64,000 nt of DNA from Siphonodentalium dalli (taxonomy: Eukaryota > Mollusca > Scaphopoda > Gadilida > Siphonodentaliidae): assembly GCA_032622095.1 (NCBI GenBank), contig CP136061.1, positions 85,472,324 to 85,536,323 of the forward strand, written 5' to 3'. Under the pieces are notes generated by a model that was not told where the DNA came from, did no database searches, and worked only from the letters and a program-made list of their open reading frames with translations. A program made the position numbers and the translations under genes. Each line of letters starts with the position of its first letter. Position 1 is the first letter of the stretch. Positions 4,343 through 62,001 of this stretch are shown here, in pieces.

Positions 4343-4922
4343 ATTTGAAACATGGTTTCACTTTAATTTCTGACAACAAAGGGTATTATGTGACATTAAG
4401 TAATACAAGGCTAGGTGATTTTATTTATTAAATTATTTATACCAAGTTAGGCCCCATTTGGACTATCAAGTTCGGATTTTAATTATTTTTACAACATTTT
4501 CCTCTGGTTACTATGGGCATTTTTCAATAAAACTAGTGTATAACATTCTTTAGTCATAAATTATTGGTTCAAATTTCTTAATTGCAATTAACTAAACACA
4601 TAAGAAACCTCCATGAACCTGTTTGATCCTGTTTCATAGCCCAGAATTATATATTTCCCATTACTACTATCCGTTGCTAGGGCGAAAACAGATGCATAGC
4701 AACCGTTGCTAAGGGGGAGACTTAGAAGGTTGTCTCCCAATCTTAAAATGATCAGCAAGGTGTCAGGTACCTATGTACCAAATTTCATGCTTTTATCCAA
4801 AAAAGTGCAATTTTGGACTTAATCGCCTGGACTAATATCCATATTTGTATGGTTCTATTGAGACAGACCGAAGATATTTTAGGCTGTTAAAGCTTTATTT
4901 GGGCGTTTTGTTGGGTAAAGGG

Positions 4923-33577: not shown

Positions 33578-34602
33578 CTACCTCGACCTTGACCTAGATC
33601 TCTGCTTCTTATTTGACTTAACTTTACCACTCCTATAATTCTCGTCTTCCTCGTTCCGACGTCGATGTTTTCCTGCTGAACTGGATTTGTGGTAGTCATC
33701 TGGCGACCGTTGCCGTGGAGACGACCTGCTAGATTTTTTGTATTTCTGACTGGATCTACTGCTAGGAGACGGCGAGTACGAACGTGATCGTCGACGTTTC
33801 TTTCGACTTGATTTCGTCAGTTCGTAACCGTCGTCTGCATAGCCATCTTGCTGCCTGTAATCATCGTATCTTTCATCATATGCCTCATAGCTCCTTCGGC
33901 GATCCTTCTCATAAGAATCGCTACGACGTCGATGCTTATCTTCATTATAATCTTGATATCTATCATGTGCCTCGTAACTTGGGCTACGATGTCTCGACTC
34001 TGAATAATCCCTCTCATCGTACATCTTTGATTCCCTTCGCTTTGATTTAACCTTTTCGGACGATTTGACCTTTTCGAAGCTTTGTCGTTTCGGAGTTTTC
34101 TTAACCTTTGACTTCTCCTGCTTCTTATTTTTAGATTTAACTTTCCGACCACATTCCTCCTTCGTTCGCTTCTTACTCTTATTACTATAACTTTCCGATG
34201 CCTTCTTGTGATATTTCTTCTTTTTCTTCACATTACGGGAACTAGATGAGTCCGATTCTGAACTAGAGATTGAGCCCGACGACTCATTAGCACTAACACT
34301 ACTCGAGGTTGAGCTGTCAGAACTGTTTGAATCAGACAAACTTGAACTTGAACTAGATTTTGGAGCTTTTTTCTTCAGCTTTCTCTTCTTTCTATCTAGT
34401 TCCTTGAGCTCTTGATGTAGTTTCTCTTTCCTAATTCTGCGTTCCGAAACAACGTCTAAAGGTCCCGCCTCTCGCGAGTCAACATCGGAATCTGCTTTCA
34501 TTTTTTCCAGTGAACGGTTTCTCCTTTCAGTGTGTGGGGCACTCCTCTCAGTGACAATACTCCGAACGATTTCCTTCGTCGGTTCACTGCTTTCTGTTGA
34601 GT
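33578..34602 (-). CDS. PNISR: PNISR terminal exon, Ser-rich and RS-like tail
   Basis: The acceptor is ccttttccag. 341 codons to a TAG at 33,578-33,580. It begins DSTESSEPTKEIVRS, then a poly-Ser/Asp stretch (roughly 34,210-34,360), Lys-rich KKKKKYHKK and SKVKKTPKR segments, a Tyr/Asp/Arg-rich middle (RHRSPSYEAHDRYQDYNE, YDERYDDYRQQDGY), and ends KSNKKQRSRSRSR. RS dipeptides and basic runs indicate nuclear speckle localisation. Confidence 0.92.
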
Positions 34603-37600
34603 CTGGAAAAGGAAAAGTGTTCTTTTCAATACTTTCTATCCAAATGTACTAAATGAATTCTCACATCAGCTATAAAAGTATACATTGGAATGTCTATTAT
34701 TCATCTAGAGGGATGTTTAGGAAAAATAAGCAGATGACAGATTATACAAGTACAGAACTTGAACTTATTAACTGAACATTTCCTGAGGGATAACTACTTG
34801 TAAATGAGTATTTATTACAAAAAGGAAAACCCTCAGCTTCCAAAGTACATATCTGATTTTGCTTCATGCTATTGTTGTCACCACTTTTAAATAAGATATA
34901 CAGGTATGTGTCCTCAAGCAATTTTAGATCTACATTTTGAAATGAATGAAGGGAGGCTATTTTTTTTTTTTCTCTCAAAATCTGAAAAACACCCTCCAGA
35001 ACAGAAACAAATAAAATTCATTTTCCAATATTTCTAGCAGAAATTATAAAAAAAATATGAGACCCGACTTGTTTAGAACTCGAGTTAATTTTTAACTAAA
35101 AATGGCATGCAATTTAACCTTTTCATGATGGGAGGAGCTGCGCTGGTGCAGCATTAAAGATCATGTGCCAGTGTATTCTCCGATATAAATAGCCTCACAT
35201 ATATTAGAGAATCCACTGGCTTGAAAGGTCAAGGTAAATATTGTTAGGCCAATACATTCTCTTATGTATGCAAGGCTCCTCGCATATGGGAGATTCCAAT
35301 ATATATGAGAATGCATTGGCTAAGGGTTTTTGCAAATTTTCAGGACACGTCTCCATTATAACATGTGATGATTGTGATCCTAAATTTCCTCTGGTGCCTT
35401 TCAATTGTTCCAGGAGAAGTTACAATAAATACAACAGACTATGAGGATCAGCTAATCATTTTCTTCAATGTAGTCATCTACTTAATATTTTATGCCACAA
35501 TGTGTGTACATGTACATGATAGTCAATCTTCATACATTACACAGATATATGTTAAGAGTTCATGTATATTGCAATTAATGCTCAATACGTATGGACATGT
35601 TAGTAAAAACATACCAAAATAATTTTGAAATTTTTTGTTTTTATCAATAATTGAAATAAAATGTCCAATGCGGGCCATTTATTAATTTTCAATGCGGTAG
35701 TGTCTGATACTCAAATCCTCTTTTTGTTTGGCCTAAAGACTTATAAATGGGGAATATAAAGAGAATATAGGAACAAGCATTTTCATTGTGAAACTCAATG
35801 TAATCCAACAGTTTCCTTAATTCTTGTATGTTCATATTTTTTTCCGAAATGAGCAAGAGGGTTTGAAAATAATCATAACAAAGAAGGGGAAATCCTAGGT
35901 TTTTTCGGGGACAGAAATTTTGGAGAAAAAAACGGAGCCCATTTTCAGCAGCTGTGTCTGACATTTGCAGACTGCAAAGGGTGAATTTAGTGACGCTATC
36001 CAGCAGAATGGGCTAGCATCACCAAATTCATCCTGTGGGGACCTCATTATGTAAATGTCAGACACTATCCAGACTTGGTTTCATATACCTTAAGCATACT
36101 TACAAATTGAGCTGCAAAAATATTATATTTGTTGGCTGTAAAAAAATCTTTGTTATTGAAATCAGTCAACACAAACAGTCAAAATTTGACTTCCACCAGT
36201 AAATTGAAAATAAATCTTAAAATATTAAAGATGGAGGCTTCACTCTTAACCCTTCCATGACTGGAGTTACCTCCCTTATTAATCCTTACATGACTGGGGT
36301 TACCTCCCTTATTAACCCTTCCATGACTGGAGATTCCTGAAATTTTGCAAAAGCCCTCAAGGGAGCCTCACATATACATGTATAAGAGAGTACATCGGCT
36401 ATAAGCATGTCACTATGATGCCCAAGCCTTGAAATAGGGTGTCTGTCATTTGCAGAATGAGGTCCCCAGGGGGTGAATTTAGTGATGCTACCCCGCATAG
36501 TGGGCTAGCATCACCAAATTCACTCTCTGGGGACCTCATTCTGCTTACACCTCAGCAGAATGAGGTCCCCAGAGGGTGAATTTGGTGATGCTAGCCCGCT
36601 ATGCGGGGTAGCATCACTAAATTCACCCCCTGGGGACCTCATTCTGCAAATGACAGACACCCTATTTCAAGGCTTGATGATGCCTGCTAAGTTGTTGCTA
36701 TGAATTAATGGTGTTGGGATGTGATCCAGATTTTGACTTAGTTCTTCTGAGCTGTCACCATGGTTACTTAAGATTTGTGAAGAATAATGTCAATTATTGT
36801 TTATTAATGAAGACTAATATAAAACAAACAACTAGACTAATATAAAACAAACAAAAAGATTTCTGTATGGGTATACATCTATTTATAATGTGAGTTGGAG
36901 ACTACTGACTTTGCGTGTCTCTTGGTTTGGACCAGATCAGATTAGATCCCCTTAAAACAGGACAGATTTTCAAGTTTGATCTGAGTTGAAGAACACATCT
37001 TAGTGTGTCATTCCAATCGATAAAAGGCTATTTCAATAAGAATTGAGAATTTGTTGATGCTCAGTGAAGCAAGCACACTGGCATTTGAAGCAATGAACAC
37101 TCATACTGAGTACGTGCATCAATAAATATGTTATATATTTACAGAAATACATGTAATTAGGTTGATCAAAATTGTTAATCATATTAAAACAATACGAAAG
37201 ACCAGCAATTTTGTTTCATAGCAGCTATTAGAGTTCTTGTAAATCTTGTTCAGTGTCTTGTCTTGTTTTATTTTTTTATTGTTTGATTTGTAGGATGATG
37301 CAAACATGTTATGTCATGTGCATCAATCCAATAAATAGTTTGATTTGAACTGGCATGCAGAACAGAAGTATTATCTTATCGAAATGGCCATGTATCGATC
37401 GGAATGGCACATCGAGATTAGGGACCTGCGAATATTCGAAATTCGATTCGATGTCGATATCGGGCACCGTTTCGAGATCGACACCGAAATCGGTCCGTTG
37501 ATTCAGATATTTTAAAATCGGTGTTACTCTGGTGTAGTCTCGTTTCTTTGCATCTCAATAACACATGCCAAATGACCCGAACTCACAAAAATTGAAGCAC

Positions 37601-43600: not shown

Positions 43601-46600
43601 ATAACACATGAGTTACGGGTAAATGTTTAACACATAACATAAATTATGCTTCCCAGGAGACATGATACTGTGGGCATAACACATGAGTTACGGGTAAATG
43701 TTTAACACATATATTGACAAAACCAACAACACAATATACTAAAAACAGAGTTTTTACTACTTTGCAAATCGGATACAAAATCCATGTTATTTATAGAAAC
43801 AAACCTTCTGAATCGCTGCTTTCTGCGTCGCTGAAGATCCGGTGCTCATTGAGTGACCTGTATTTCTTTAATCTCTCCTGTAGCTCGATGTCCGAGTCGT
43901 CTTCATCATCTGGATGCTCATCCTCGCTGTCGGAGCCGTGACCTCCACCTAAAAAACAACTAGATTCTCCAGTACGAAGGCATACAAAATGAACACGAAT
44001 ACACAATAAAATACACAGCCTAAAAACAACTAGTTTAACGTAAATAGTATTTTATTCCATATAAATCAACATTCATATATCAACAATATATGATGAGTGA
44101 ATAATATTTGTATGGAGGGGATCCAACATTAAGCACAAAGCTCATGGGAGTAAGTCTTTCATTAAAGATCCTATGCCAATTCATTCTCTTATATAAGCGA
44201 GTCTACCATAGGGAGTTTCGCATATATAAGAGAATTCCTGGGTCACAAGGTCAAGGTAGATTTTGTTAGGCCAATGCATTCTCTTATATATGCAAGGCTC
44301 CCTGTGGGAGACTCGCATATATAAGAGAATACATTGGCACAGGAAGCTCCAGTCATGAAAGGGTTACGTTACGATGTTCCCAATTTTTTTAGAGAAACGT
44401 TATTTGGTACATGGAGTATAATAGTATTATAAATGTCTATCTGCAGCTTAGCTACTCAATGTGGGCTAGATCAATAGATATATCATAAAGAGATTTTTTT
44501 CATATGGAGTAATAAAAAGAAATTAATTGAAAGTAGATTTATTATAGCGGGTGCTAATTATAGAGAAGAGTTTGAGGTTGCATATGCAAAGTTTGGAATT
44601 GAGGTACCAATCCGGTGAATTTAGCGATGCTATCCTGCATAGGGGGCTAGCATCACTAAATTCACCCTCCGGGGACCTTATTCTGGATGTGTCTGATTTG
44701 AAGTCAATGGCATATTATTCGCAATTGCCAAAATATATTGTCACGTTTTGGGAAATCGCTTTTTAATTCTTCAAAAAAGTTGAAAAATATTTGTCAATCA
44801 ATATCATTCATTTGAGGAAACTCTTACAATATAATTATATTAGTGGTGTTTTATATGGCTTTGGAGAAGTTAACAGCTCAACAAGATACAGTTAATCTGA
44901 TAGCAGTAGTATCAACGGGTGGAGGGATTACTAGTATTTATTGTGGTGATGTTTACATAGCTAATCCTGTTTTGATGAGCCCTTCTGATAAAGCTAGCCT
45001 TCTAAAATGTTATTGTTCAGTTATTAGTTTATTGTTGTATGACAGAGAGGTGAATATAACTAATAACTAACTACAGTAATGCCCAAAGTAATTGACCACT
45101 TGACCACAGCAGAATGAGAGCTTTCCGATGAATGGCAACAAGCCATATTTCCGACTAAATCCTGAAAAATTACCCATAATTTTGCTGTGGTCAAGTGGTC
45201 AATTAGTTTAGGCATTACTGTACTTTCCTATCGATATCAAAATTTATTCAAACAGCGATTGTAGAAACTGATACTATCAGTGATAGCATCTGGAATTTTA
45301 TAAATGAATATGGCTAAAAGTAAATTTCGGTCCAGCGTGGACCCAGTATGCAGTACGGGAATGAGACGTGTGAATAATATGCTATCGCTTTAGATTTTGT
45401 GTTCTAGTTTCTCCAGTACAAAGACGTACAGAAAATGAAAATAGGAGTACAGTAAACACACAAATACAGCATAAAATACAAAGCCCCAGGAATGAAGTGC
45501 TCATGAGATAACTAATAAACAAGAGGCTTCATAGGGAGTCTCACATATATACAAGCCTTGAAATAGTGTCTGTCATTTGCAGAATGAGGTCCCCAGAGGG
45601 TGAATTTAGTGATGCTACCCTGCATGGTGGGCTAGCATCACCAAATTCACCTCTGGGAACCTCATTCTGCTCAGGTGTAAGCAGAATGAGGTCCCCAGAG
45701 GGTGAATTTGGTGATGCTAGCCCACTATGCGGGGTAGCATCACTAAATTCACCCTCTGGGGACCTCATTCTGCAAATGACAGACACACTATTTCAAGGCT
45801 TGCACATATATAAGAGAATACATTGCCTAACAATATTTACCTTGAACTTGTAAGTCAGTACATTATCTTATATATATGAAACTCCCTATGGGAGAATAAC
45901 TGGAACATTATCGTTAATTATACACCAGCAACCGTACCACACCATTGTGCTCGGATTCTATCAGAATTTTTGGAACTTACGGTATTAAATGATACAAACT
46001 TTATTTAACTTGTGGACTGACTACGGGCACTGTTCACTCGGTGTATATACCTATTGTAGAAGTCCACAAAATGTGGGTAAAATAGACCAAGAACGTATCA
46101 GAAAGTCCAAACCCGCAACATGTCATGGTATTCCCAGTCCAGTTCTTGATGTTCGAATCATCAAGAATCTGTTCATGTATAAATCAAAAACGTGGATTCG
46201 TATAAACCCACTGATGAAGATTTACCATGGGCTTTATTGACCCTACCTGACCCCCGACCTCTAACCCTACAGTTGCTAAGAAGAAACTTACCGAATGCCG
46301 ATAGTGATGCCAATGCCGAGGACTTGGCTAGTTGCTTTGCCGGAGCTTGATTAACAGATGTAAAGAATTAGTAACATGACCAACAATAAACAGCAAACAC
46401 AAAATACTACCGTCTCTAACTGCTGCAAGCTGAAATGAAAACTTCTTTAACATTATCAATACAGATGAACATAAGAATTTATATTCACAGAAATTGCCAT
46501 CATTGAATCAATCAAGGCAGAACTACTTTGAGTTTGATCTAAGATCAATGAATTTGTAGATTTTCCATTCACCAATCGCTATGTCAAGATCTGCCTGGGT

Positions 46601-49600
46601 TTATTTTTTTCCATCTAGAGATTTTTTCCCCAGATGTTTGTTAATCCTTCCATGACTGGATCTTCCTGAAATTTTGCAAAAACCCTTTGCCAATGCATTC
46701 TCTTATATATGCGAGTCTTCCAAGAGTGCTTCATACATATAAGAGAATACATTGGCCTAACAATATTTACCTTGACCTTGTAAGCCAGTGCATTGTCTTA
46801 TATATGAGAGGCTCCCTATGGAAGACTCGCATATATAAGAAAATGCATGGCACAGGATCTTTAATGCTGCACCAGTCATGAAAGGGTTAACTAATAAAAT
46901 TACTGCAGCCTTATTCACAGAAATTTGCCATCAATGAATCAATATTCTCAAGCAAATGTAACTAAATGCAGAACTACTTTGGTTTGGATTCAACGGCGAT
47001 GAATTTGAAGATTTTTCCAATAGAATTCAACAGGAATTTTTGTGTATTGTTTATCAAGTCATGAGCTAACCTAGTCATGGTGTGAGAGAATACAGAATAC
47101 GAGACGTATCCCTGTTAATTGGTAAAACAGTCAAGGTTTTGCAATTGTGGTTTTATTTTTAACAAACTGAAAGGTTAAGTAGGGCAAAGGTGTTTTCATC
47201 AGCAAGACTGCAAATAGCGTGCTGGTCATTTGCAGAATGAGGTTCCCAGAGGGTAAATTTAGTGACGCTATCCCACACAGTGGGCTAGCATCGCCAAATT
47301 CACCTCTGGGAACCTAATTTTGCTTAGGCCTCAACAGCTATGGGAGACCTAGGATCAGATTGAAGTAGGTGACGTTTACCCATTAGTTACCTTGATTATG
47401 CATTTTATCTTCTGCAAATTATGGGATATAGAAACTTCACAAGAAGGGAAAAAGTAACTAAAAACAATGTTAATTTGAGACCATAGATACTTCCCAGAAG
47501 ATGAGGCCAAAGCAGAATAAGGTCGCCAGAGGGTTAGTTTGGTGATGCTAGCCTGCTGTACATGGTAGCGTCACTAAATTCACCCTCTGGAGACCTCATC
47601 CTGCAAATGTCAGACAGACTACATCCGGGCTAAGTTCAAGTCTCCTTGAAGAGGCAAGATACCATATCTTAAAGGAGGACTACACACTAAGTCAGGCCAT
47701 GTATGGGACCATCTATTACACTCAAATGACTATATGCAACAAATGAATGAACTTGAGCCATCAATGAGTGCAAAATACACTCATGTGCTCTATGAACGAT
47801 ACAAACATCATGGTGATTATAATGAAAATTAATTCATGACTCGAGGCAGCACCTGAATTTTTCCTGACCTGGAGGTGGTATTAGCCCTTTCTTTACTAAA
47901 TATGATTAATATTTCAGACATGTATGATACTTTTTTATCTTTGGCCATTTTTGGACCCACTCACCTTTGACCCAATTTTTTTCCATTTTAGCAAGTTTTT
48001 GGCGACCATTTTTCAAAACCCACCCCAGAAACACGAAATATTTTTTTTTTGGAAGAATATTTGAATTTTCACCACTTACTGCCTGTTTCCTATCAACTAC
48101 CTATTACAGGTTAGGGTATTTGATTAGCTCAGTTTGACATGGCAATGATTGCTTATGCAATGTGTTCATGCATTTTATGTTCCGAGTGACATACACTGAC
48201 ATATACTGGGTATTTATTAATTTTACAACAAGAATTAATCTATACTAACTGTCTAAATGCAGTTGATGTTAAAATTACATTATCTCTAAGTTTTAGGTAA
48301 AAAAAATAGCTTAAAGTATGACCTACACTGACATACAATTTTACAACAAGAAACAATCTATACTGACTGTATATCTCTAATAGTTCTCAACAGTAACATA
48401 CGCAGAATAATTTCAGGCTTGTATTATAATTTATATATCTTACGCCGAAATTAAAAAAAAATTTGTTTGCCTACAGATATCTACCCAAGAAAAAGACCCC
48501 TACCTACCTTTCGAAACATTTTACATTGGGTAGAGAATGGGCAAGCACAGTATTACTCAGGCTTGTTCCGAAAGCAATGATTACCAATGCACATTTCAAA
48601 CCTAGAAATATTTAATGAAATATCAACAGATAACATGACAAATATAACAACTTCAGCTTTTGAAAGGCATTGGTATATGTGGAAAAACAAGGGTATATGT
48701 GAAAAACAAGGGTATATGTGATAATTGTAAACATGCTGCCTCATCACATGTTTCCTCAACAGACTGAGTTGTAGCGCAAAACACACCACTGTTCACACAT
48801 TCAGATCGTCAGTCCGAATAAGTTACTTGAGAACCTACGCACGGTTCCCATCAACATATTCCCAGATATCGAATGACATTGTTCTGAGTATGGAAAGCCA
48901 GAATGTTCATAGCTTATGCTTCCTGGGTATGGAAGGACAGAATGTTCAAAACTTATGTTTCCTCGATAAGGAAGGACAGAATGTTCATAGCTTATGCTTC
49001 CTGGGTATGGAAGGACAGAATGTTCATGACTTATGTTTCCTTGATATGGAATGATAAAATGTAGATAACTTATGCTACCTTTCGCAGCCTTTATCTTAGC
49101 TCGTGAGTAAACCTCTTTAGCAATTTCCTCGACTTCACGGTTGGTTACCTCCAATAAAACTTCAGTCAACATCTTCCTCACTTTGATCATCTGTAAATGA
49201 TATTGTGTTTCCTTATAAATAAAAGTTTGAACCTCAAAATTACATGTACATAATTTGGTAAGAGGTATCTTAAATATACCTACGAGGAAGATTTCTGAAT
49301 AAATTGTTGATATGTGACCCGCCATATCAAATCCAGTCGGAAGTCGGGATACAAGAGAATGCATTGGCCTAACAGTTTTTTATCATGTTTTTTAATTAAA
49401 TGTTTCTTACAATTTTTAGGACATAAAATATAAAACATCCATTACCCTGCAGGGAGTCCCACACATATATAGAAACATATAGAAGAGTGTCGTCTGCTCA
49501 TGTTTGTCTGGGGCTCTGTATGGGTGAAATTATAAAATTGTTAAAGAATACAAGAACAAATTATTAAAATTGTAAAAAATTGTTAGGCCAATGCATTCTC

Positions 49601-52600: not shown

Positions 52601-55600
52601 TACAGACCTAACATATGAGGGCTATAAATAACTCTCAAAGCAATAAACTATATTGTCTTTTATCTTGCTCACAGAGAAGCAGGTATTCATTAATTGTAAG
52701 TTACTTGGGTTATAATCTGGATAATTCTTAGTTTAAAAAGGGCCATATCTCTGGTATAACAAATTGGATCTAACCCATATTCAAACTCGTTCTGTATTTT
52801 GAGCTGAGAAACTCACATACCAAATTTGGTTCCTATCAGATGAAAAATGGTTGATTTATCGAAGTACATGTATGTGTGAATCATATGTCAAAGGACCATA
52901 ACACCATTAAAAAAAATCCGATCAAACCCATATTCGAAATCAATCTGTATGTTGGTCTGAGAAACTCATACACCAAATTTGGTTCCAATCAGATAAAAAA
53001 TGTTTGAGTTATGGCAGAATTCATGAATTCTAAGTCGAAAAAGGGCCATAACTCCGTAAGAAAAACTCCGATCAAACCCATATTCGAACTCGATCTGTAT
53101 TTTGGGTCGAGAAACTCACATACCAAATTAGGTTCCGATCAGATAAAAAATGTTTGAGTTATGGCAGAATTCATTAATTCTAAGTCGAAAAAGGGCCATA
53201 ACTCCATATACAAAATTTGGTTTTGATCAGGTAAAAAATGTTTGAGTTATCGCATTACACGTAAAGTGTCTACGGACGGACAGACGGACGGACAGACGGA
53301 CGGACGGACGCACGCACGACGAGTGGTCAATCCGGACAACGACACTATGTTTACCATACATGGAATGGGTAAACATAAAAATGAATATAAAAACCTGCAT
53401 GCCCATTTTGAAAAATGTCAAAGGTTTCATCCATTTCGACTTGAGGGAAGTTTTGAGAGAGGGTGTCTGAATTACGCTTAAGCGTTGGAATTGAGCCAAA
53501 GCTTAATTGGCAAATAAATGTGAATTTGGCCTCTACTAGAGGCTTAATAGGTGATTATCTAACCAGTTCTTCATGTTTTTCCTCCTCTGTCTTGAATTCA
53601 TCTGGTGGAGGACTTTCTCTTTTCGGCGCTGCTGGCGGTGGACTTGGAGATTTACTTCGTGGCTTTGAAGGACTTTTCTCATCATCAGAATCCTACAATA
53701 CACAGAAAAAATGCTGATATATTCAGCTCGAAAGAATCATGAAAGTCATTTTCAATTTTGGCTGTCAAAAAATAAACACTTAAAGAGCAGTCAAAAAATA
53801 ATATTAATAATAATCAATAATCCTGTAGTTAGGATGCTGCGATTGATTGAATCATATTTCGATTCTCCATTAAGTCTCCCGAATCGAATCGATTCATTTT
53901 CGATTTGGAGTCATCACAGTTTCGATTCTATTTGCAGCATATGAACTCCATTATATTCTTGTCGATTTAACGTCTACCAACGCTTGAAAGCATAAAAATA
54001 AAAGACCATAATTCAAGAATTTCATCACAGATTGGAATCATCTGGAAGTTGCCCCATCAAAGTGCATGTACGACCTTTTAATTAGACGCAAACCGTCATC
54101 GTGATAAGCGATGACCAATCATAATGTACTATTCATGATCACACGATAAGAAGCTATAGGCCAAATGAGCTCTCAAAGCAATTGTGCTTGAATATCCAAC
54201 TGTTATTTGGAATATAACATCGCATGTTCACACACAAATGCTGCATTTATATCACCAAGAACAGACTGAATAGAACAGAATTCGATACTCAAATCAAATC
54301 GAAAATAGAATGGGAAGCAATGCCCGAATTGCAGGGTCATACCTGTAGTTATGAACTGACCCGAATCGCAGGCTTATGAACTGACTAACATAACAAAGAT
54401 ATAAGAGTCATATTGCAAACTTGTAGCATAATAAATCGGCAAAAGCCGATTATGCGACATAAGTACATGATATTTCATCAGTATCTTACTGCATGCTTTG
54501 TAACTGGAGTTTTTCTCCAGCACTCTTTCTGCTGAGACTATTGCCAGTCTCCATGGTAATGCCATTTGCCTTAGACGAATATCCAGGACTGTCACTTAGT
54601 AATAATCAGTAGAACACTGACTACAACATGGTATGACTAGCATGCACGATTTTACGATCTGGAACACCTCGGCATTGCCGCAGACAACACATTACCAAGT
54701 CTGGTATTTCGTAGAATATTGGCTACAATTCGGTATGAGCATATAGGACCTGGAACACTGTGCATGCCGCACATGTCTTGTTTTTCGGCCCTCAACATGA
54801 GTTAAACATTGCAGTACTTACGAATTTGCTTCTCTGTCTCATAAATAAACCTGATTTGGAATCCTGTGAGCCCTCCTCACTGTTATCGCGCGATAACCGC
54901 GCCTCCATTTCCTCCTGCTTGCGACGCTCTTCTTCTATCTTTTTCTGCTTTTGTCGTTCCATTTTCTCCAGTCCTTCCCTGATCCACAGCGGTAAGTTCT
55001 TTCTTTTAGCAGCATCTAAAGTTGAAATCAGTCATTTGAACCCCATAAAGCACCCCACACTTACAGAAGTTCTGACAAGGAAATTAATAACATTGAACAA
55101 ATAATGCAGGCAGGCTTGAGTTTAGTGTGCCTGTCATTTGCAGAATGAGGTTCCCAGAGGGTGAATTTAGTGATGCTATCCCTCATAGCGGGCTAGCATA
55201 CCAAACCAACCCTCTTAGGACCTCATTCTGCATGGCCTGATGTCCTGGAGTGTTGGAGGTGGGCTGAGTTATTATAGTGGGCGGAAAGTTCTTTCTTTGC
55301 AGCAATCTAAGCGGATAGCAGGGAAACCGAGAATCAGATTGGAGTTCCCCAGTTGAAGTCGGTGATGTTCACCCATTAGTCACCTCAATTATGCATTCTA
55401 TTTTCTGCATATTAGGGGATATAGAAATTCAACAGAACTTCAGAAGTAACTAAAAACAATGTTATTTTAAGACTACAGATCTCTACTCCCCAGCAGGTGA
55501 GACCTAAGCAGAATGAGGTCCCCAGAGGGTGAATTTGGTAACACTAGCCACTAGACACTGCGGGGTAGCATCACTATATTCACCCTGGGGGACGTCATTC

Positions 55601-58600
55601 TGCAAATGACACACTACTTGCAGGCAGTCCTTCCCTGATCCACAGCAGTAAGTTCTTTCTTTTAGCAGCATCTTAAGAGAAAATCAGGAATTTGCAGAAT
55701 GAGGTCCCCAGAGGGTACATTTAGTGAAGCTACCCCTCTGGGACCTCATCTGCATGGCCCCATCTGCTATGGGAGTCCTAGACTCATATTTAAGATCCCA
55801 GATGGTGAAGTGCACCCATTGGGCACCTCGATTATGTATTGTGTTGTCTGCAAATTTGGGAATTAAAGGAGAAACTAAACGAAAAAAGATAAAGAAACTT
55901 TCTAAAGAAACTAAAAATACTTGTTAATTTGATAATAAAGATACTTTGCAGAGTAGATGAGGCCTAAGCAGAATAAGGGGGGAATTTAGTGATGCTAGCC
56001 CGCTCTAGGGGCCTCATTCTGCAAATATCAAGCACCATATTTTCAGACCATTAACCCTTTACCCAACAGAACGGCCCTGTGCCAATGCATTCTCTTATAT
56101 ATGCGAGTCGACCATAGGTCGCCTCGCATATATAAGAGAATGCATTGGCTTAACACATATTAAAAATGATAAAATTGTCAAAGAATATAGAAAAATATTA
56201 TAAAAATTGTTAAAAAATGTAAGAAAAAATTATAAAATTGTTAAAGAATGTAAGAAAAAATGGTAAAAAAGATTTTTTTTAGGCCAATGCATTCTCTTAT
56301 ATATGCGAGGCGACCTATGGTCGACTCGCATATATAAGAGAATGCATTGGCACAGGGCATAACTGTAACCATCACAATGTGGTCAATGAACTGGTTCCAA
56401 TGATATCCATATTTGTATGGTTTTATTGAGACAGACCGAAGATATTTTAGGCTGTTGCCGAAGCTTTATTTGGGCGTTTTTGGCCGTTTTGTTGGGTAAA
56501 GGGTTAATCACTCTGGCTACGCCCGTAAAGATCATGTTCCACCAATTCAAATCAAAACTTTTGACATTGAAAACATAGTATTTCTATTTAAAGATAGTGT
56601 TTCTCTTCCGTGCCACAATTCAAACTTAATTTTTTATAAAGTCAGATTTCAAGACTACAAATCACTTTTTCTGCGATTAAATTAAATTACAGACAAAACT
56701 GAAGATTGGGAAGCTTCCGTCTGTGTGAGGCTCCCTATGGGTTACAATATTAGAACTGACCTAACGACGACTCTTCTGTGGCCTCAGGAGATCTGTTTCG
56801 GCCTCGTCGTCTTCGATTCTGATGTCTCTCAGTCTCATCCCAATACTCCTCATCATAATGCTCCGGTTCATTTCCATGCTACAACAAAAATCACTTCAAT
56901 ATAATATTTTATCATATGACTCAATCATTATTTACGTTGTAAAGTATGTCATAAATCAATTTCATATGAACTACTAGTTCATATCACCTTCCGATAATTT
57001 GATTGGTTTGTTGACAAAAAGTGTGTTCTGATTGGCTGAATGGCAGCCTGAGCCGCATCTCTAACTAAATGCAGGTCAAATTCGTGCGCGTCAATCAACG
57101 CGATGCCGAAATTCTCGCAATTATAATCTTGAAATATATAGTTTTGGACATTGTTATACGATAAATAGAATATGTAATTCGTATTTATCTAATAAACATA
57201 CTATATAATGTCACAAACTGAGAACAGAATAGCGCACTATATCTTCGCGTGCATATTATTTCTGCTAGTTCACCAGGTGTAATTGGGCTTCCGGTGCAAT
57301 GAAGTGACGTCACATTAACCTTTTGCTGCCGATGTCATATAGCTATTTAGTGATTTGTGTGCGTTTTGGACATCATAATCAATTTATAGGTGTCATATGA
57401 TAAATAGAATATGTAATTCGTGTTTCTCTCATATGATATTTATGAAACTCGTCACGAATTTTCAGTTTTCTCTCGCCAGAGGCTCGAGAAAACTGAAAAT
57501 TCTTAGATTCGTTTCATAAATATCATATGAGAGAAACACTCATTTCATATCCTCTATTTATCACATAATTAGCCCCTAAATCCAGCTTAATATTTTATGA
57601 GGTTCCCTAAGGATGAATTTGGTGATGATAGCATGCTGCGCAGGATAGCATCACTAAATTCACCTGCTGGGGACCTCATTCTGCACATATCAAACACACA
57701 AATTCCATGCTTGTTTGTTGAACTCATTAACTGAACATTTCCTTCTGCCCATCTATCGTCATCTTATATTTCTTCAACATCCCTCCAAATAAATAATTAG
57801 AGATGGGCGGTATTGAAATTTCAAGCTCGGTATCGGTATCGGTAAATTTTCGTCGATTTACCGCGGTATCGGTACGGTAATCGGTATTGCTATTAAATTA
57901 CAAAACCAGAGCAGAGATTCCCGGTAAATTGCGGTAATTCAAGTTTTTAACTGAACAATATGCATGTATATATCATATGCCCACGGATTTACTACATTCG
58001 TGACAACAGCTAAATGAGGCAACACAATGACCTACACAATTATTCAATTAGGTGATATTCACACTTCTGTTTGATGATTTACAAGCACGCCGTCGCATCC
58101 CTTTTGAAAAGAATAAGAGATTGCATCATTGCATGGCTACAATATCTATACGTGTCAATTTCGTCACATTTTCGCAAGTGAATAGAATTGTGAGTAGTAA
58201 TCAGTGATCACAATTCACAACTCCCTATAAATAGCCGCAACGCGAAATAAATCTTAGAATTTAATCAACTGATGGATCTGTTCTATTTTTAGAAAGTGAA
58301 AGTAGATTATGATTCACTGTACAAATGAAATCGGACCTTATTTCTGTTAATGCCGCTTGCATTGTCGGTGTCTTTGAAGTCGCCAAAGCCACGTGCTATA
58401 CGGACTGCCACCGCCTGGGCATTACACAGTGACAGTCAGTGTGGCATTGACGACGTTACAATGTAGCAATACGTTACATCACAGCTTCTTTGATACACTG
58501 TGTATCTATTCTAACAACTGCATTGATTGTTGGGCCCGTAACTAGGTCAACCATATGTGAGTGTGTATTCCTTTTGCTCGCTCAAGGCCTGTCAAACTGA

Positions 58601-61600
58601 TAACAGGTCACCGACACGGTCAGCTGAATTCTTATCAAGTGGCTGCTTTTTACCAGTCGGGTTCTTTGTGATGGTCTGATGGATTTGTATAATTCTGAGA
58701 TTAATTTTAATTAAAGTACCAAATAAAAACTGTTTACTGAGAAACTTTACTCAATATGAAGACACACAAGTTGGCAACACATGAATAAATTCAATACCGA
58801 AAAATCGGTATTTTTAGTTTTGATTCGGTACGGTAAATCGGTATTTCGCTGATACCGATACCGCACGGTAAATACCGAGTACCGCCCATCTCTATAAATA
58901 ATAGACCATTCCAAAGTACACTTTACCCTTTCATGGTGGAAGCTTCGCTGGTGCAGCATTAAAGATACTGCGCCATTGCATTCTCTTATATATGCGAGTC
59001 TCCCATAGGCAGCCTCAAATATATAAGAGAATGCATTGGTTTACAAGGTCAAGGTAAATATTGTTAGGCCAATGTATTCTCTTATATATGTGAGGCTCCC
59101 TATGGAAGACTCGCATAGATAAGAGAATTCATTGGCAAAGTGTTTTCACAAAATAGTTCAAATAGCTCAAGTCATGGAAGGGTTAAAGGTACTCAATCCG
59201 TTTGATGGTCCCCATATCATCAGATTCCAACAACAACATTAATTGAAATGCCGCTTCAGTTATCAGTATTGATGAATTGCCCAAAAATAATGCTAACCAG
59301 AGTCAACTATAGTTTTACATTGTCCAAAACCTGTTATTTTTCATCATTTTGTTTTACGAAATTTGGCCAGATTGTCAAATATCTAAAACCTGAAGCTACT
59401 TGATTTTAGAGTTATCCATCTTCATCCGCAATTTGGTCTTCTCGTCGACTTTTTGCCAGGCCGCCAAAAAGTACCGGTGGTGAAAAATAATAGATTTAAA
59501 AAATCAATATCTGATCACTCTGAGCTTTGATGGGTGGGTTCCTCGACTCGAATCAATTTTTGTTTTACCCCCAAAGAAATAGTAATTTGAGGGTTTAATT
59601 CAGATTGTGCATCTTCAATAACTGGTGGGAGGATCCATTCAGGCTAAAGGGTTATCTCACCTCATTATATTGGTACTGCTCAGACGTTCAGGCTAAAGGG
59701 TTATCTCACCTCATTATATTGGTAATGCTCAGACGTTCAGACTAAAGGGTTATCTCACCTCATTATATTGGTACTGCTCAGACGTTCAGACTAAAGGGTT
59801 ATCTCACCTCATTATATTGGTACTGCTCAGATGTTCAGGCTAAAGGGTTATCTCACCTCATTATATTGGTACTGCTCAGACGTACAGACTAAAGGGTTAT
59901 CTCACCTCATTATATTGGTACTGCTCAGATGTTCAGGCTAAAGGGTTATCTCACCTCATTATATTGGTACTGCTCAGACGTTCAGGCTAAAGGGTTATCT
60001 CACCTCATTATATTGGTACTGCTCAGACGTTCAGGCTAAAGGGTTATCTCACCTCATTATATTGGTACTGCTCCGACGTTCAGGCTAAAGGGTTATCTCA
60101 CCTCATTATATTGGTACTGCTCAGACGTTCAGGCTAAAGGGTTATCTCACCTCATTATATTGGTACTGCTCAGACATTCAGGCTAAAGGGTTATCTCACC
60201 TCATTATATTGGTACTGCTCAGACGTTCAGACTAAAGGGTTATCTCACCTCATTATATTGGTACTGCTCAGACGTTCAGGCTAAAGGGTTATCTCACCTC
60301 ATTATATTGGTACTGCTCAGACATTCAGGCTAAAGGGTTATCTCACCTCATTATATTGGTACTGCTCAGACGTTCAGACTAAAGGGTTATCTCACCTCAT
60401 TATATTGGTACTGCTCAGACGTTCAGGCTAAAGGGTTATCTCACCTCATTATATTGGTACTGCTCAGACGTTCCGACTAAAGGGTTATCTCACCTCACTA
60501 TATTGGTACTGCTCAGACGTTCAGGCTAAAGGGTTATCTCACCTCATTATATTGGTACTGCTCAGACGTTCAGACTAAAGGGTTTTCTCACCTCATTATA
60601 TTGGTACTGCTCAGACGTTCAGGCTAAAGGGTTTTCTCACCTCATTATATTGGTACTGCTCAGATGTTCAGGCTAAAGGGTTATCTCACCTCATTATATT
60701 GGTACTGCTCAGACGTTCAGACTAAAGGGTTATCTCACCTCATTATATTGGTACTGCTCAGACATTCAGGCTAAAGGGTTATCTCACCTCATTATATTGG
60801 TACTGCTCAGACGTTCAGGCTAAAGGGTTTTCTCACCTCATTATATTGGTACTGCTCAGACGTTCAGACTAAAGGGTTATCTCACCTCATTATATTGGTA
60901 CTGCTCAGACGTTCAGACTAAAGGGTTATCTCACCTCATTATATTGGTACTGCTCAGACATTCAGGCTAAAGGGTTATCTCACCTCATTATATTGGTACT
61001 GCTCAGACATTCAGGCTAAAGGGTTATCTCACCTCATTATATTGGTACTGCTCAGACGTTCAGGCTAAAGGGTTATCTCACCTCATTATATTGGTACTGC
61101 TCAGACGTTCAGACTAAAGGGTTATCTCACCTCATTATATTGGTACTGCTCAGACGTTCAGGCTAAACGGTTATCTCACCTCATTATATTGGTACTGCTC
61201 AGACGTTCAGGCTAAAGGGTTATCTCACCTCATTATATTGGTACTGCTCAGACATTCAGGCTAAAGGGTTATCTCACCTCATTATATTGGTACTGCTCAG
61301 ACGTTCAGGCTAAAGGGTTATCTCACCTCATTATATTGGTACTGCTCAGACGTTCAGACTAAAGGGTTATCTCACCTCATTATATTGGTACTGCTCAGAC
61401 GTTCAGGCTAAAGGGTTTTCTCACCTCATTATATTGGTACTGCTCAGACGTTCAGGCTAAAGGGTTATCTCACCTCATTATATTGGTACTGCTCAGACGT
61501 TCAGGCTAAAGGGTTATCTCACCTCATTATATTGGTACTGCTCAGACGTTCAGGCTAAAGGGTTATCTCACCTCATTATATTGGTACTGCTCAGACAGTC

Positions 61601-62001
61601 AGACTAAAGGGTTATCTCACCTCATTATATTGGTACTGCTCAGACGTTCAGGCTAAAGGGTTATCTCACCTCATTATATTGGTACTGCTCAGACATTCAG
61701 GCTAAAGGGTTATCTCACCTCATTATATTGGTACTGCTCAGACATTCAGGCTAAAGGGTTATCTCACCTCATTATATTGGTACTGCTCAGACGTTCAGGC
61801 TAAAGGGTTATCTCACCTCATTATATTGGTACTGCTCAGACATTCAGGCTAAAGGGTTATCTCACCTCATTATATTGGTACTGCTCAGACGTTCAGACTA
61901 AAGGGTTATCTCACCTCATTATATTGGTACTGCTCAGATTCCCCAGAATGCTGATAATCATACGACTGAAAGCCGTGATTATAATCGAAGTTCAAAGCTT
62001 C
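33578..62001 (-). CDS. PNISR: PNISR homologue, gene span (8 exons visible, 5' end outside window)
   Basis: Eight minus-strand exons join in phase with GT-AG borders to give about 620 residues: 62,001-61,915; 56,878-56,761; 55,015-54,822; 53,692-53,564; 49,190-49,079; 46,345-46,292; 43,948-43,805; 34,602-33,578. Order and content match vertebrate PNISR (human 805 residues): LPLWIREGLEKMERQKQKK, RSKF-DSDDE, KMLTEVLLEVT, APAKQLAKSSALASL, an acidic SDSEDE block, then a Ser-rich, Lys/Arg-rich tail ending SRSRSR. PNISR is a nuclear-speckle SR-related protein that binds pinin. Roughly 180 N-terminal residues must lie beyond 64,000 or in unrecognised upstream exons. The introns total about 26 kb and are built mainly of MITEs; two exons open directly into minisatellites. 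Confidence 0.9.
34603..35113. other. Start of PNISR last intron, no feature seen
   Basis: AT-rich intronic DNA with a T12 tract near 34,960. Nothing else recognised. Confidence 0.4.
35114..35345. mobile_element. T2 MITE, right end lost
   Basis: TTAACCTTTTCATGATGGGA at the left, then gctggtgcagcatta, two partial hairpin modules and caaggtaaatattgttagg. It fades at gggtttttgcaaattttcag. Confidence 0.65.
35346..35954. other. Unassigned intronic stretch
   Basis: AT-rich; no exon with PNISR similarity and no repeat recognised. Confidence 0.4.
35955..36075. mobile_element. hAT-C MITE, half copy
   Basis: A single inverted pair (tgtctgacatttgcagact ... cattatgtaaatgtcagaca) of the family module. 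Confidence 0.65.
36247..36422. repeat. T2 end fragments in tandem
   Basis: Three closely spaced versions of ttaacccttccatgactgg plus ttacctccctt lie at about 36,247-36,330, then a remnant of the hairpin spacer. They look like repeated T2 termini without bodies. Confidence 0.5.
36423..36676. mobile_element. hAT-C MITE, intact, with 8-bp duplication
   Basis: CAAGCCTTGAAATAGGGTGT at the left and its complement at the right. Perfect duplication ATGATGCC at 36,415-36,422 and 36,677-36,684. The whole element is a palindrome whose arms are themselves palindromic. Confidence 0.9.
36685..37384. other. Unassigned intronic stretch
   Basis: No gene or family repeat recognised; one short direct repeat (agactaatataaaacaaaca twice near 36,810-36,850). 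Confidence 0.4.
37385..38805 (-). mobile_element. tRNA-derived SINE, copy 3, split by a hAT element
   Basis: The bases before 37,418 (gaaatggccatgtatcgatcg) and after 38,699 (caagcttgaaaatcag ... ggtgttcgaacccatg) are the body and B-box region of the SINE at 12,945. Its A-box end is interrupted by the T1 insertion at 38,806. Confidence 0.65.
37419..38691. mobile_element. Non-autonomous hAT element, 1.27 kb
   Basis: The ends are TAGGGACCTGCGAATATTCG and ATTCGCAGATCCCTA, with the perfect 8-bp duplication ATCGAGAT (37,411-37,418 and 38,692-38,699). Sub-terminal attcgattcgatgtcgatat motifs repeat at both ends. No transposase frame. Confidence 0.9.
38806..41135 (+). mobile_element. T1 MITE carrying a nested insertion
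   Basis: Left TTAACCCTTTACCCAACA and right TGTTGGGTAAAGGGTTAA. Without the insert at 38,919-40,805 the remaining ~440 bases match the copy at 56,051-56,507, including both hairpin modules. Confidence 0.9.
38919..40805 (+). mobile_element. Hairpin-ended element with ~160-bp internal repeats, copy 2
   Basis: Starts tgaaagtgtcaatgacact and ends acttacaaaagtaagttg then agct, the reverse order of the copy at 14,855. About ten ~160-bp internal units alternate two subtypes (ending at ggatttagtcatgcaaag or ggattgaattttgaaatcc), plus a cacacg-rich stretch near the right end. Insertion into an A run of T1 gives a 2-bp AA duplication, consistent with copy 1. Confidence 0.87.
41384..41816. mobile_element. 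Foldback element with ~95-bp inverted ends
   Basis: gggtataaaataataaatat ... gtccggaaaggcttctatc at the left is reverse-complemented at 41,720-41,816 (gataaaagcatttccggac ... aatatattataccc) at about 80% identity. Non-coding. Confidence 0.65.
41817..42365. other. Unassigned intronic stretch
   Basis: No exon-like or repeat features recognised. Confidence 0.4.
42366..42420 (-). pseudogene. Relic of the donor side of PNISR exon 7
   Basis: On the minus strand GCTGAGAGCAGTGATTCAGA (42,395-42,414 region) repeats the end of exon 7 (AESSDSEG), and similarity continues into the intron (tcggatacaaa-tcca) exactly as at 43,768-43,825. The donor itself is altered (AAG followed by gatcg). It looks like a decayed local duplication of an exon edge. 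Confidence 0.55.
42759..42980. mobile_element. T3 MITE, near-perfect 100-bp-arm palindrome
   Basis: TTAACCCTTTCAGTGCCAAG at the left and its complement at the right, TTAA on both sides. The arms (ccgatttttgtatcaaccca ... gtgatacattgatgg and complement) match almost perfectly around a loop of about 20 bases containing agagctctaagagctc. Confidence 0.88.
43259..43402. mobile_element. T3 MITE, shorter palindrome
   Basis: The same ends and arms as the previous copy, with about 65-bp arms and a minimal loop; TTAA flanks both sides. Confidence 0.85.
43420..43712. repeat. 75-bp tandem array, four copies
   Basis: The motif ggagacat occurs at 43,438, 43,506, 43,581 and 43,656 (spacings 68, 75, 75). 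Each unit includes ttatgcttcccaggagacat, tactgtgggcataa and gttacgggtaaatgtttaac. It lies about 90 bases downstream of the PNISR exon 7 donor. Confidence 0.85.
43805..43948 (-). CDS. PNISR: PNISR exon 7 of those visible, acidic block
   Basis: The acceptor is gttttttag and the donor is CAGAAG/gtttgt, non-consensus at +3/+4. It encodes GGHGSDSEDEHPDDEDDSDI then LQERLKKYRSLNEHRIF and SDAESSDSEG, like the GSGDSEDE...RIRQKQEAF region of vertebrates. A relic of its donor side is at 42,366-42,420. Confidence 0.85.
44147..44367. mobile_element. T2 MITE
   Basis: Two hairpin modules, aaggtcaaggtagattttgt in between, and the right end agctccagtcatgaaagggt. The left TTAA end is degraded. Confidence 0.65.
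44596..44690. mobile_element. hAT-C MITE, half copy
   Basis: One inverted pair (tgaatttagcgatgctatcc ... gctagcatcactaaattcac) of the family module. Confidence 0.6.
44691..45071. other. Unassigned intronic stretch
   Basis: A 75-codon plus-strand frame (44,843-45,070) has no recognisable features. Confidence 0.4.
45072..45222. mobile_element. TA-flanked mariner-like MITE, 150 bp
   Basis: TACAGTAATGCC at the left and GGCATTACTGTA at the right, with inverted similarity of about 40 bases (attgaccacttgaccacag and complement). TA target and CAGT ends fit Tc1/mariner MITEs. Confidence 0.85.
45552..45802. mobile_element. hAT-C MITE, intact
   Basis: CAAGCCTTGAAATAGTGTCT at the left and complement at the right. 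It is inserted in a hairpin remnant so that cacatatata occurs on both sides, which prevents exact definition of the duplication. Confidence 0.82.
45803..46291. other. Unassigned intronic stretch
   Basis: Begins with a T2 remnant (aagagaatacattgcctaac), then nothing recognised up to PNISR exon 6. Confidence 0.4.
46292..46345 (-). CDS. PNISR: PNISR exon 6 of those visible, APAKQLA block
   Basis: Only 54 bases. The acceptor is ttaatcaag, with a weak pyrimidine tract, and the donor is TTCG/gtaagt. It encodes APAKQLAKSSALASLSAFG across the junctions, nearly identical to vertebrate APAKQLAQSSALASL, which makes this small exon secure. Confidence 0.9.
46641..46890. mobile_element. T2 MITE, complete
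   Basis: TTAATCCTTCCATGACTGG at the left and CCAGTCATGAAAGGGTTAA at the right, with two hairpin modules; this copy shows both ends of the family. Confidence 0.85.
47205..47640. mobile_element. hAT-C MITE, long form
   Basis: Four modules in the same order as 25,484-25,889 and 51,144-51,536, with a ~170-bp unique centre (gggatatagaaacttcac). Confidence 0.7.
47641..48884. other. Unassigned intronic stretch
   Basis: No exon or family repeat recognised; a short tandem ggtatatgtg repeat lies near 48,670-48,720. The frame at 48,553-48,789 looks like chance. Confidence 0.4.
48885..49079 (-). repeat. 39-bp minisatellite abutting the PNISR exon 5 donor
   Basis: The motif gaatgttc recurs at 48,901, 48,940, 48,979 and 49,018 (period 39), and a degenerate fifth unit at about 49,057 runs into the donor (gtagcataagttatc resembles the unit's gaagcataagctatg). 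On the minus strand the unit encodes GSISYEHSVLPYP in frame with exon 5. Confidence 0.85.
49079..49190 (-). CDS. PNISR: PNISR exon 5 of those visible, KMLTEVLLEVT block
   Basis: The acceptor is catttacag and the donor is GCGAAAG/gtagca; 112 bases, phase 0 in and 1 out. It encodes MIKVRKMLTEVLLEVTNREV then EEIAKEVYSRAKIKAAK, matching vertebrate KMLLTEILLDVTDEEI. The frame stays open through the donor for about 90 more codons made of 13-residue repeats, because the following minisatellite has a 39-bp unit. Confidence 0.9.
49313..49701. mobile_element. T4 MITE, copy 1
   Basis: TGTGACCCGCCATATCAAAT at the left and its complement ending GGTCACA at the right, flanked by TA. The interior contains a T1-type hairpin module and aaaattgttaa spacer. 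Confidence 0.8.
49735..50105 (-). repeat. Old dispersed repeat or conserved non-coding segment, copy 2
   Basis: Reverse complement of 26,815-27,190 (gtgatgtgaaacactccggt, ttcatcgccgat, cccccagttggcatagcacc, cgcacccaaacaag). This copy lies in a PNISR intron. Confidence 0.6.
50353..50538. mobile_element. hAT-C MITE, with 8-bp duplication
   Basis: CAAGCCTTGAAATAGGGTGT ends and the perfect duplication GTGTGCAC at 50,345-50,352 and 50,539-50,546. Part of the left arm is deleted (gaatttgcctcagcagaatg). Confidence 0.9.
50608..51015. mobile_element. T4 MITE, copy 2
   Basis: The same ends as 49,313-49,701, flanked by TA, but the interior is inverted relative to copy 1 and retains two hairpin modules, one with its central part deleted (50,915-50,960). 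Confidence 0.8.
51144..51536. mobile_element. hAT-C MITE, long form, with 8-bp duplication
   Basis: caagcctggaaatagtgtgc at the left and catttcatggcttg at the right, flanked by GATAAGTA and GATAAGCA (7 of 8 identical). Confidence 0.8.
51537..52102. other. Unassigned intronic stretch
   Basis: Contains ttttaacaaaggattttac twice (51,567 and 51,611 regions); no exon recognised. Confidence 0.4.
52103..53372 (+). mobile_element. Dispersed element with ~170-bp internal repeats (ggccataactccgt family), copy 2
   Basis: The left boundary is cgagaggccgatcaccatcg then gatgtttaacccatccc; the right end is catggaatgggtaaacat. Three to four ~170-bp units and a (gacg)n tract precede acgacgagtggtcaa. Shorter than copy 1, with a largely different central part. 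Confidence 0.65.
53564..53692 (-). CDS. PNISR: PNISR exon 4 of those visible
   Basis: The acceptor is gtattgtag and the donor is GAACTG/gttaga; 43 codons, phase 0. It encodes DSDDEKSPSKPRSKSPSPPP then a Glu-rich end, continuing the RSKF-DSDEE junction of vertebrate PNISR. Confidence 0.88.
53693..54821. other. PNISR intron, no family repeat recognised
   Basis: AT-rich; a tcgattcg-rich patch at 53,850-53,935 resembles hAT sub-terminal sequence but no paired ends were seen. Confidence 0.4.
54822..55015 (-). CDS. PNISR: PNISR exon 3 of those visible, WIREGLEKMER block
   Basis: The acceptor is aactttag and the donor is AAATTC/gtaagt. It encodes the most diagnostic segment of the family, KRKNLPLWIREGLEKMERQK, followed by a Glu/Arg-rich helix and RSKF at the end. 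Partial copies of its acceptor-side edge occur at 55,627-55,677 and 55,282-55,311. Confidence 0.92.
55111..55620. mobile_element. hAT-C MITE, long form
   Basis: caggcttgagtttagtgtgc at the left through tgacacactacttg at the right, with four modules and a copied exon-edge fragment (55,282-55,311) inside. Confidence 0.65.
55627..55677 (-). pseudogene. Copy of the acceptor edge of PNISR exon 3
   Basis: gtccttccctgatccacagc followed by agtaagttctttcttttagc repeats 54,971-55,010 with one or two changes, and the acceptor (cttaag before ATGCTGC) is retained. No donor follows in a matching position, so it is a fragment. A shorter, more decayed version is at 55,282-55,311. Confidence 0.75.
55690..56043. 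mobile_element. hAT-C MITE, diverged
   Basis: Modules near 55,693, 55,735, 55,970 and 56,010 in the order of the long form; the right side is partly deleted. Confidence 0.6.
56051..56507 (+). mobile_element. T1 TTAA-type MITE, reference copy
   Basis: Complete: TTAACCCTTTACCCAACA at 56,051, hairpin module one at 56,085-56,150, AT-rich spacer, hairpin module two at 56,285-56,350, unique right part with cagaccgaagatattttagg, and TGTTGGGTAAAGGGTTAA ending 56,507. It lies in the PNISR intron between visible exons 2 and 3. Confidence 0.92.
56761..56878 (-). CDS. PNISR: PNISR exon 2 of those visible
   Basis: The acceptor is ttgttgtag and the donor is TTAG/gtcagt; 118 bases, phase 0 in and phase 1 out. 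It encodes HGNEPEHYDEEYWDE then RRRRGRNRSPEATEESSL. The vertebrate counterpart is the QNRRERPSS region. Weakly conserved in sequence, assigned by position, phase and splice sites. Confidence 0.8.
57401..57563. repeat. Foldback sequence, ~70-bp arms
   Basis: taaatagaatatgtaattcg ... aattttcagttttctc is reverse-complemented on the far side of ctcgccagaggctcgag. A relative of the outer arm occurs alone at about 57,160-57,200. Confidence 0.75.
57598..57705. mobile_element. hAT-C MITE, half copy
   Basis: One inverted pair (gatgaatttggtgatgatag ... gcatcactaaattcacctgc) ending gcacatatcaaacacac. Confidence 0.6.
57798..58894. mobile_element. hAT-D non-autonomous element, copy 2
   Basis: TAGAGATGGGCGGTATTG and GCCCATCTCTA ends with the perfect 8-bp duplication TAAATAAT (57,790-57,797 and 58,895-58,902). 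Related to the copy at 27,698-28,993 along most of its length. Confidence 0.9.
58922..59186. mobile_element. T2 MITE
   Basis: ttaccctttcatggtggaag at the left, two hairpin modules, and caagtcatggaagggttaa at the right. Confidence 0.78.
59636..61938 (-). repeat. 49-bp minisatellite, 47 copies, built from a PNISR exon/intron border
   Basis: The motif aaaggg recurs from 59,646 to 61,900, a span of exactly 46 x 49 bases, so no net indel has occurred. On the minus strand each unit reads TCTGAGCAGTACCAATATAA then TGAG/gtgagataaccctttag. That is the last ~24 bases of the PNISR exon at 61,915, its 5' splice site, and 25 bases of intron. Variation is concentrated at a few sites: gactaaa or ggctaaa, acgttc or acattc or atgttc, and gttatc or gttttc. 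There are no spacers. Confidence 0.95.
61915..62001 (-). CDS. PNISR: PNISR exon (first visible), 29 codons
   Basis: The acceptor is tttgcag before GAAGCTTTG and the donor is AATGAG/gtgaga. It encodes EALNFDYNHGFQSYDYQ... and ends EQYQYNE, corresponding to the FDYQHG region of vertebrate PNISR. Its last ~24 bases and donor are the seed of the adjoining 49-bp minisatellite. Reading through the donor meets a TAA within three codons (gtg aga taa). Confidence 0.82.

Follow-up and report, generated by a model that had tools for sequence, protein, structure and literature searches.

The window, a stretch of 64,000 nucleotides from the scaphopod Siphonodentalium dalli, carries the gene PNISR on its reverse strand, where all the exons named below lie. 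Eight exons, two of which sit upstream of the window in piece L003, were joined into 378 codons without a stop in one frame, the other two frames containing 13 and 31 stops. The joined frame runs up to exon E and includes neither the first exon nor the exons after E. Its product matches PF15996 over profile positions 2-171 of 178 (E = 1.2e-41, product residues 215-376), and by this open frame and this match the gene is PNISR, as had been proposed in an earlier note made from the letters of the window. A six-frame search of the genome with PF15996 gave two matches, both at the present locus, and no second PNISR locus was found in it. A pseudogene or a second copy of PNISR was therefore rejected, the frame being intact across the eight exons tested. 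The PF15996 match starts in exon C (54822-55015) and is also found in exon D (49079-49190); exons C2 (53564-53692) and E (46292-46345) complete this part of the gene. Exon A (61915-62001, 87 nt), which follows the acceptor ttttgcag, encodes EALNFDYNHGFQSYDYQHSGESEQYQYNE and ends in phase 0, lies outside the domain match and was placed in PNISR by its position, its splice sites and the continuity of phase. The next exon, B, has 118 nt (56761-56878, HGNEPEHYDEEYWDE...). An RS-rich open frame outside the joined frame (33581-34648, reverse strand) is a candidate for the RS part of PNISR, with provisional borders and membership.

The intron between exons A and B (56879-61914, reverse strand, about 5.0 kb) opens with a 49-bp tandem array (59636-61938, reverse strand). 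When cut in register, it consists of 47 head-to-tail units, 2303 bp in total, without any indel, and TRF called it at 59638-61938 (period 49, 47.0 copies, 97% matches, 0% indels, score 4336). On the gene strand the unit reads TCTGAGCAGTACCAATATAATGAG (24 exon bases) followed by GTGAGATAACCCTTTAGCCTGAACG (25 intron bases); that is, each unit repeats the final 24 bases of exon A and then 25 intron bases with the donor gtgaga. Both the indel-free copy number and this composition had been claimed in the earlier note and were confirmed here. In unit 1 (61890-61938) the first 24 bases are the end of exon A and the other 25 are the start of the intron, and the array thus includes the exon's own donor, a hallmark of donor VNTRs of the ABCA7 kind. 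The native 5' splice site, GAG/GTGAGATAA (61906-61917, reverse strand; the slash marks the junction), has an in-frame TAA as intron codon 3, and units 2-47 supply the decoys. The duplicated segment contains AGGT, as AATGAGGTGAGA occurs in 47 of 47 units, one of which carries an A>G change upstream of it. A 41-base piece from the beginning of the unit had 47 matches with up to 3 mismatches in the 2.23-Gb assembly, all of them inside the array. An origin from a dispersed satellite or transposon repeat was rejected, since no copy of this piece lies elsewhere at that threshold.

All 47 units keep the donor 9-mer GAG/GTGAGA intact, which agrees with the earlier description of one native and about 46 near-identical decoy donors, each preceded by the exon end. 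Predicted pairing with U1 gave -9.7 kcal/mol for the array donor and -4.1 to -9.5 kcal/mol for seven other PNISR donors, the next best being those of exons N1 (-9.5) and E (-9.3). Counting matches to the U1 consensus in a fixed register gives 6-7 of 11 and one wobble for the array donor, and 5-8 for the seven others. The array donor is therefore good rather than exceptional, level with the best of the gene by free pairing energy and middling in fixed register. By the same predicted pairing, a usable donor would recur in register along the array, as in the ABCA7 kind of VNTR. On the same strand of 74 kb there are 3,943 GT sites, 55 of which reach -9.7 kcal/mol or lower, and 47 of these 55 belong to the array. 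The 5' end of U1 in this species has the usual sequence (one copy inspected, L006), and at least 42 U1 loci score in this genome. At C1:103842444-103879156, U1 snRNA genes follow one another in tandem at regular intervals of about 2,150 bp. Masking of the decoys by RNA structure was rejected: for exon A plus the first four units, 191 of 200 shuffled sequences fold at least as well (z = +1.64).

The units differ from their consensus at 0-3 positions; 14 of the 47 are identical to it, 12 distinct unit sequences occur, and the mean pairwise difference is 1.37 of 49 bases (2.8%). Summed over all units, the 39 differences from consensus comprise 14 at the sole CpG of the unit (11 C>T and 3 G>A), 14 that are a C/T alternative at one intron position, four T>A changes at intron position +7 and seven single changes. 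Such a pattern fits decay of the CpG in a young array whose units have been mixed through exchange. Variable sites number 11 of 49 in the unit, with 3 of 24 in the exon part and 8 of 25 in the intron part (Fisher p = 0.17). None of the nine donor positions varies, a result expected by chance in ~8% of cases (p about 0.08). A higher-order order of multi-unit repeats was sought, and none of 23 lags fell below p = 0.05 in 2000 shuffles. The small divergence and the absence of indels support a young or homogenised array, in keeping with the earlier proposal of recent expansion or homogenisation. Three other arrays of more than 3 copies in the window show 94-96% identity in TRF, so the 97% found here is not unusual.

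The native intron starts GTG AGA TAA, which places a stop at the third codon past the native donor. Use of any decoy would retain the intron part of the native unit first, and with all 46 decoys the frame is predicted to end at the same codon, number 32 counted from the beginning of exon A; the in-frame TAA within three codons that had been foreseen for decoy use is thus borne out in the predicted products. Were the 118-nt exon B skipped, the shifted frame would run into a stop at codon 56. The earlier note had also likened the ...ccctttag before each next unit to a weak acceptor. It is indeed weaker than the acceptors of the gene, since the pyrimidine share of 'CCCTTTAG' at -20 to -5 is 0.38, below the eight tested (0.50-0.75), but the unit holds better candidates in CTGAG/ (0.62) and GCAG/ (0.50). 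The TTTAG acceptor is predicted to produce a 32-nt exon that shifts the frame, and the CTGAG and GCAG acceptors to produce exons of 18 and 15 nt that keep the frame and add QYQYNE and YQYNE, respectively.

The surroundings of PNISR are richer in tandem arrays than the control pieces: arrays cover 8,351 of 74,000 bases around PNISR, the 47-unit array included, and 1,716 of 62,085 bases in 60 dynein pieces, which are exon-centred and thereby bias the comparison. These controls were 60 of 89 dynein heavy chain matches (PF08393), namely the first 63 less three probable copies of others (on C3); some of the 60 overlap each other or may stem from the same exon (L018, L025). Among them, one match in 60 is overlapped by a TRF array of period ≥6, on the acceptor side (L039), and none of the 60 is overlapped on the donor side, where matches may end before the true exon ends. 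On that donor side, in another dynein piece (L044), two transposon-like copies of 103 bp stop 8 bases short of the match. A partial copy of an exon border lies nearby for 7 of 60 dynein matches (three inverted only, one direct and inverted, and three direct on the acceptor side) and for 3 of 9 PNISR exons including A (Fisher p = 0.12); apart from A, two of eight tested PNISR exons, N1 and C, have such a copy within 400 bp. Exon-border copies are thus not rare in this genome, and PNISR was not shown to be special in having them, but a large expanded donor array is absent from the 60-piece sample.

Several neighbouring repeats touch other exon borders. A second, older array lies at the donor of exon D (48884-49080, reverse strand; exon end 49079), with a 39-bp unit, about 5 copies and 82% matches; its other units have GA in place of the donor GT, hence they offer no decoys, and a 25-base piece of its unit has 4 genome matches at up to 2 mismatches, all inside that array. 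Exon N1 contains a duplication within the exon (L003, about 4600-4730) with a spacing of 48 bp and two CATACAG/GTACGACT at 4684 and 4636 (reverse strand), a layout resembling that of the Rogers model, intron gain by a duplicated AGGT. Partial copies of the start of exon C lie in its upstream intron at 55625-55673 (98% over 49 bp, beside an AG) and 55281-55309 (87%), and a partial copy of exon N1 lies in its upstream intron (L003, 4925-5048); these copies are possible decoy exon starts. Dynein heavy chain exons with direct copies of the acceptor side in the flanking intron occur at L039 631-816 (71-bp unit) and L008 262-377 (80-86%). A dispersed palindromic repeat, about 100 bp long (GCAGAATGAGGTCCCCAGAGGGTGAATTTAGTGATGCTA...) and probably a MITE, occurs in PNISR and dynein introns (36452-36647, about 57640-57690, L015, L044, L048 and other places).

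The reading that we favour, with moderate confidence, is that of a young minisatellite that arose by duplication across a donor and is mostly spliced out together with its intron by way of the native donor, while some stop-bearing transcripts leak through. All statements on splicing made here are inferred from the sequence of one assembly. A tandem duplication across the donor of one PNISR intron, taking in 24 exon and 25 intron bases, would have grown through slippage or unequal exchange into the 47-unit minisatellite at the intron start, and the whole array would normally leave with the 5-kb intron. The native donor would be preferred because it alone closes the normal 87-nt exon behind a real acceptor, in the manner of exon definition. 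In a small share of pre-mRNAs a decoy may be used, and its TAA would expose the transcript to nonsense-mediated decay; by analogy with ABCA7, a longer array may also raise the skipping of exon B and shift the frame. The array probably alters PNISR dosage to a modest degree that varies with unit number, and this influence is probably not a product of selection. Most likely, again by analogy, the array is tolerated with slight decoy use, and its length may act on exon B or on expression. In favour of this reading are the 47 indel-free units of 49 bp, the restriction of the unit to a single locus, the occurrence of PF15996 solely here, the open eight-exon frame, the abundance of tandem arrays around the gene, the border copies at N1 and C and the low unit retention in ABCA7. 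Against it, intron-proximal preference has been reported among equal competing donors, which would favour decoy use, and the decoys here have exon context, unlike those of the intron-only ABCA7 unit. Moreover, ABCA7 shows that such an array can matter, through next-exon skipping and a fall in expression. The available parts of two papers on competing donors (PMC8724738, PMC9311317) contain nothing that settles donor choice.

A larger role, in which frequent decoy use or exon B skipping lowers PNISR output, possibly as a feedback loop in a splicing-associated gene, seems rather unlikely. Intron-proximal preference or sheer number would direct splicing to the decoys, and output would be lost via stop-bearing transcripts or by nuclear retention of U1-bound RNA. 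The equality of the 47 donors, their dominance among the GT sites at or below -9.7 kcal/mol, the common stop of all decoy products and the early stop on exon B skipping all speak for it, and a premature stop via alternative splicing, predicted here, is also a feature of the unproductive splicing described for SR-type genes (PMC4379411). However, unit retention in ABCA7 is rare and independent of length, its authors saw no length effect on decay, selection on the donor has left no significant sign, and among the papers listed no title or abstract opening dealt with self-regulation of PNISR. Control of PNISR by the array, which the earlier note had called conceivable, is unsupported by this analysis, the invariance of the donor not being significant.

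Microexons offer a different outcome, in which the GCAG or CTGAG acceptor of a unit pairs with the donor of the unit and 15- or 18-nt in-frame exons extend the Tyr/Gln-rich part of PNISR by repeats of YQYNE or QYQYNE. Calculated with a consensus unit, either exon keeps the frame and is stop-free at 1, 2 or 3 copies, the pyrimidine shares of their acceptors lie inside the range of the eight acceptors of the gene, and a branch-like taac motif and CCCTTT were seen by eye about 25 nt upstream; but the branch-like motif is separated from the acceptor by an AG (TTTAG), neighbouring units would leave introns of only about 31-34 nt unless units are skipped, and exons as small as 15-18 nt as a rule require special assistance. 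We consider this outcome very improbable, and slightly more improbable still its extension, in which splicing from the native donor to the GCAG or CTGAG of one or more units yields a variable number of YQYNE or QYQYNE and an intronic minisatellite sets the length of PNISR. The earlier note had further called it conceivable that the array titrates U1, and enough U1 snRNP might be bound by 46 strong additional sites per transcript to alter the splicing of other genes. Few nuclear RNAs are as abundant as U1, and with at least 42 U1 loci scoring in this genome this is implausible in the extreme; titration in trans was rejected on scale, because 46 sites per pre-mRNA stand against an abundant snRNA. 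That collapsed or misjoined reads created the array or its copy number is also highly doubtful. One assembly alone stands behind the array, but its 2.3 kb would be short relative to long reads, its units carry scattered private variants, and exon A runs in frame into the first unit.

With 47 identical donors, nearly all after the same 24 exon bases, the array is a natural experiment on the choice of 5' splice sites, in which strength and local exon context are constant and position alone differs. In the portions of the literature searched, no description was found of a donor-spanning array with exon sequence in its unit that gives decoys the context of the native exon. The closest relatives fall into several classes. 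In genes of human segmental duplications, minisatellite-sized repeats at exon-intron boundaries likewise alter gene structure and may form new introns (PMC2812944), but these repeats average about 30 bp x 4. In the Rogers model, introns are gained by tandem duplication, as exemplified by ATP2A1, potato RdRp and 24-nt repeats in fission yeast (PMC4974935, PMC3629103). As in that model, the duplicated unit here holds AGGT and can cross a splice junction; unlike in the model (PMC4974935), the PNISR intron leads to exon B 5 kb away and was lengthened by the array, with no new intron indicated. No new intron in formerly exonic sequence was found, as 25 of the 49 bases lie beyond the donor and the frame resumes in exon B. 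The VNTR6-1 in intron 6 of TERT (38 bp, 24-66.5 copies; PMC11830802) is likewise an intronic minisatellite, close to the present array in unit size and copy number, but its alteration of splicing is explained by G-quadruplexes and not by a repeated donor.

By its sequence, the array belongs with the donor VNTRs of the ABCA7 kind. The VNTR in intron 18 of human ABCA7 starts with the canonical donor of exon 18 and has a GC-rich unit of 25 bp; its shortest form has 12 units, and allele lengths between 315 and 9711 bp are quoted (De Roeck et al. 2018, PMC5954066). One unit was reported as retained in 2 ± 1% of transcripts (value order as in the source sentence), independent of length. From the shortest to the longest allele pair, next-exon skipping increased 3.2-fold, and it increased 4.1-fold in an allele-specific test; in one brain area it accounted for 45 ± 10% of transcripts; expression dropped with VNTR length, and decay showed no length effect (PMC5954066). 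In both genes a minisatellite opens the intron, with the canonical donor carried by the first unit, and in ABCA7 the donor of a further unit is usable, adding one unit and a premature stop, for which a counterpart is predicted in PNISR. The PNISR unit differs in its 49 bp, each with 24 exon bases, from the intron-only 25-bp unit of ABCA7, and copy-number variation and transcript effects have been measured for ABCA7, whereas the PNISR array is known from its sequence alone. By sequence, the array is a second case, in an unrelated gene, beside the ABCA7 VNTR, suggesting that a donor junction can give rise to a minisatellite and that such minisatellites may affect gene dosage.
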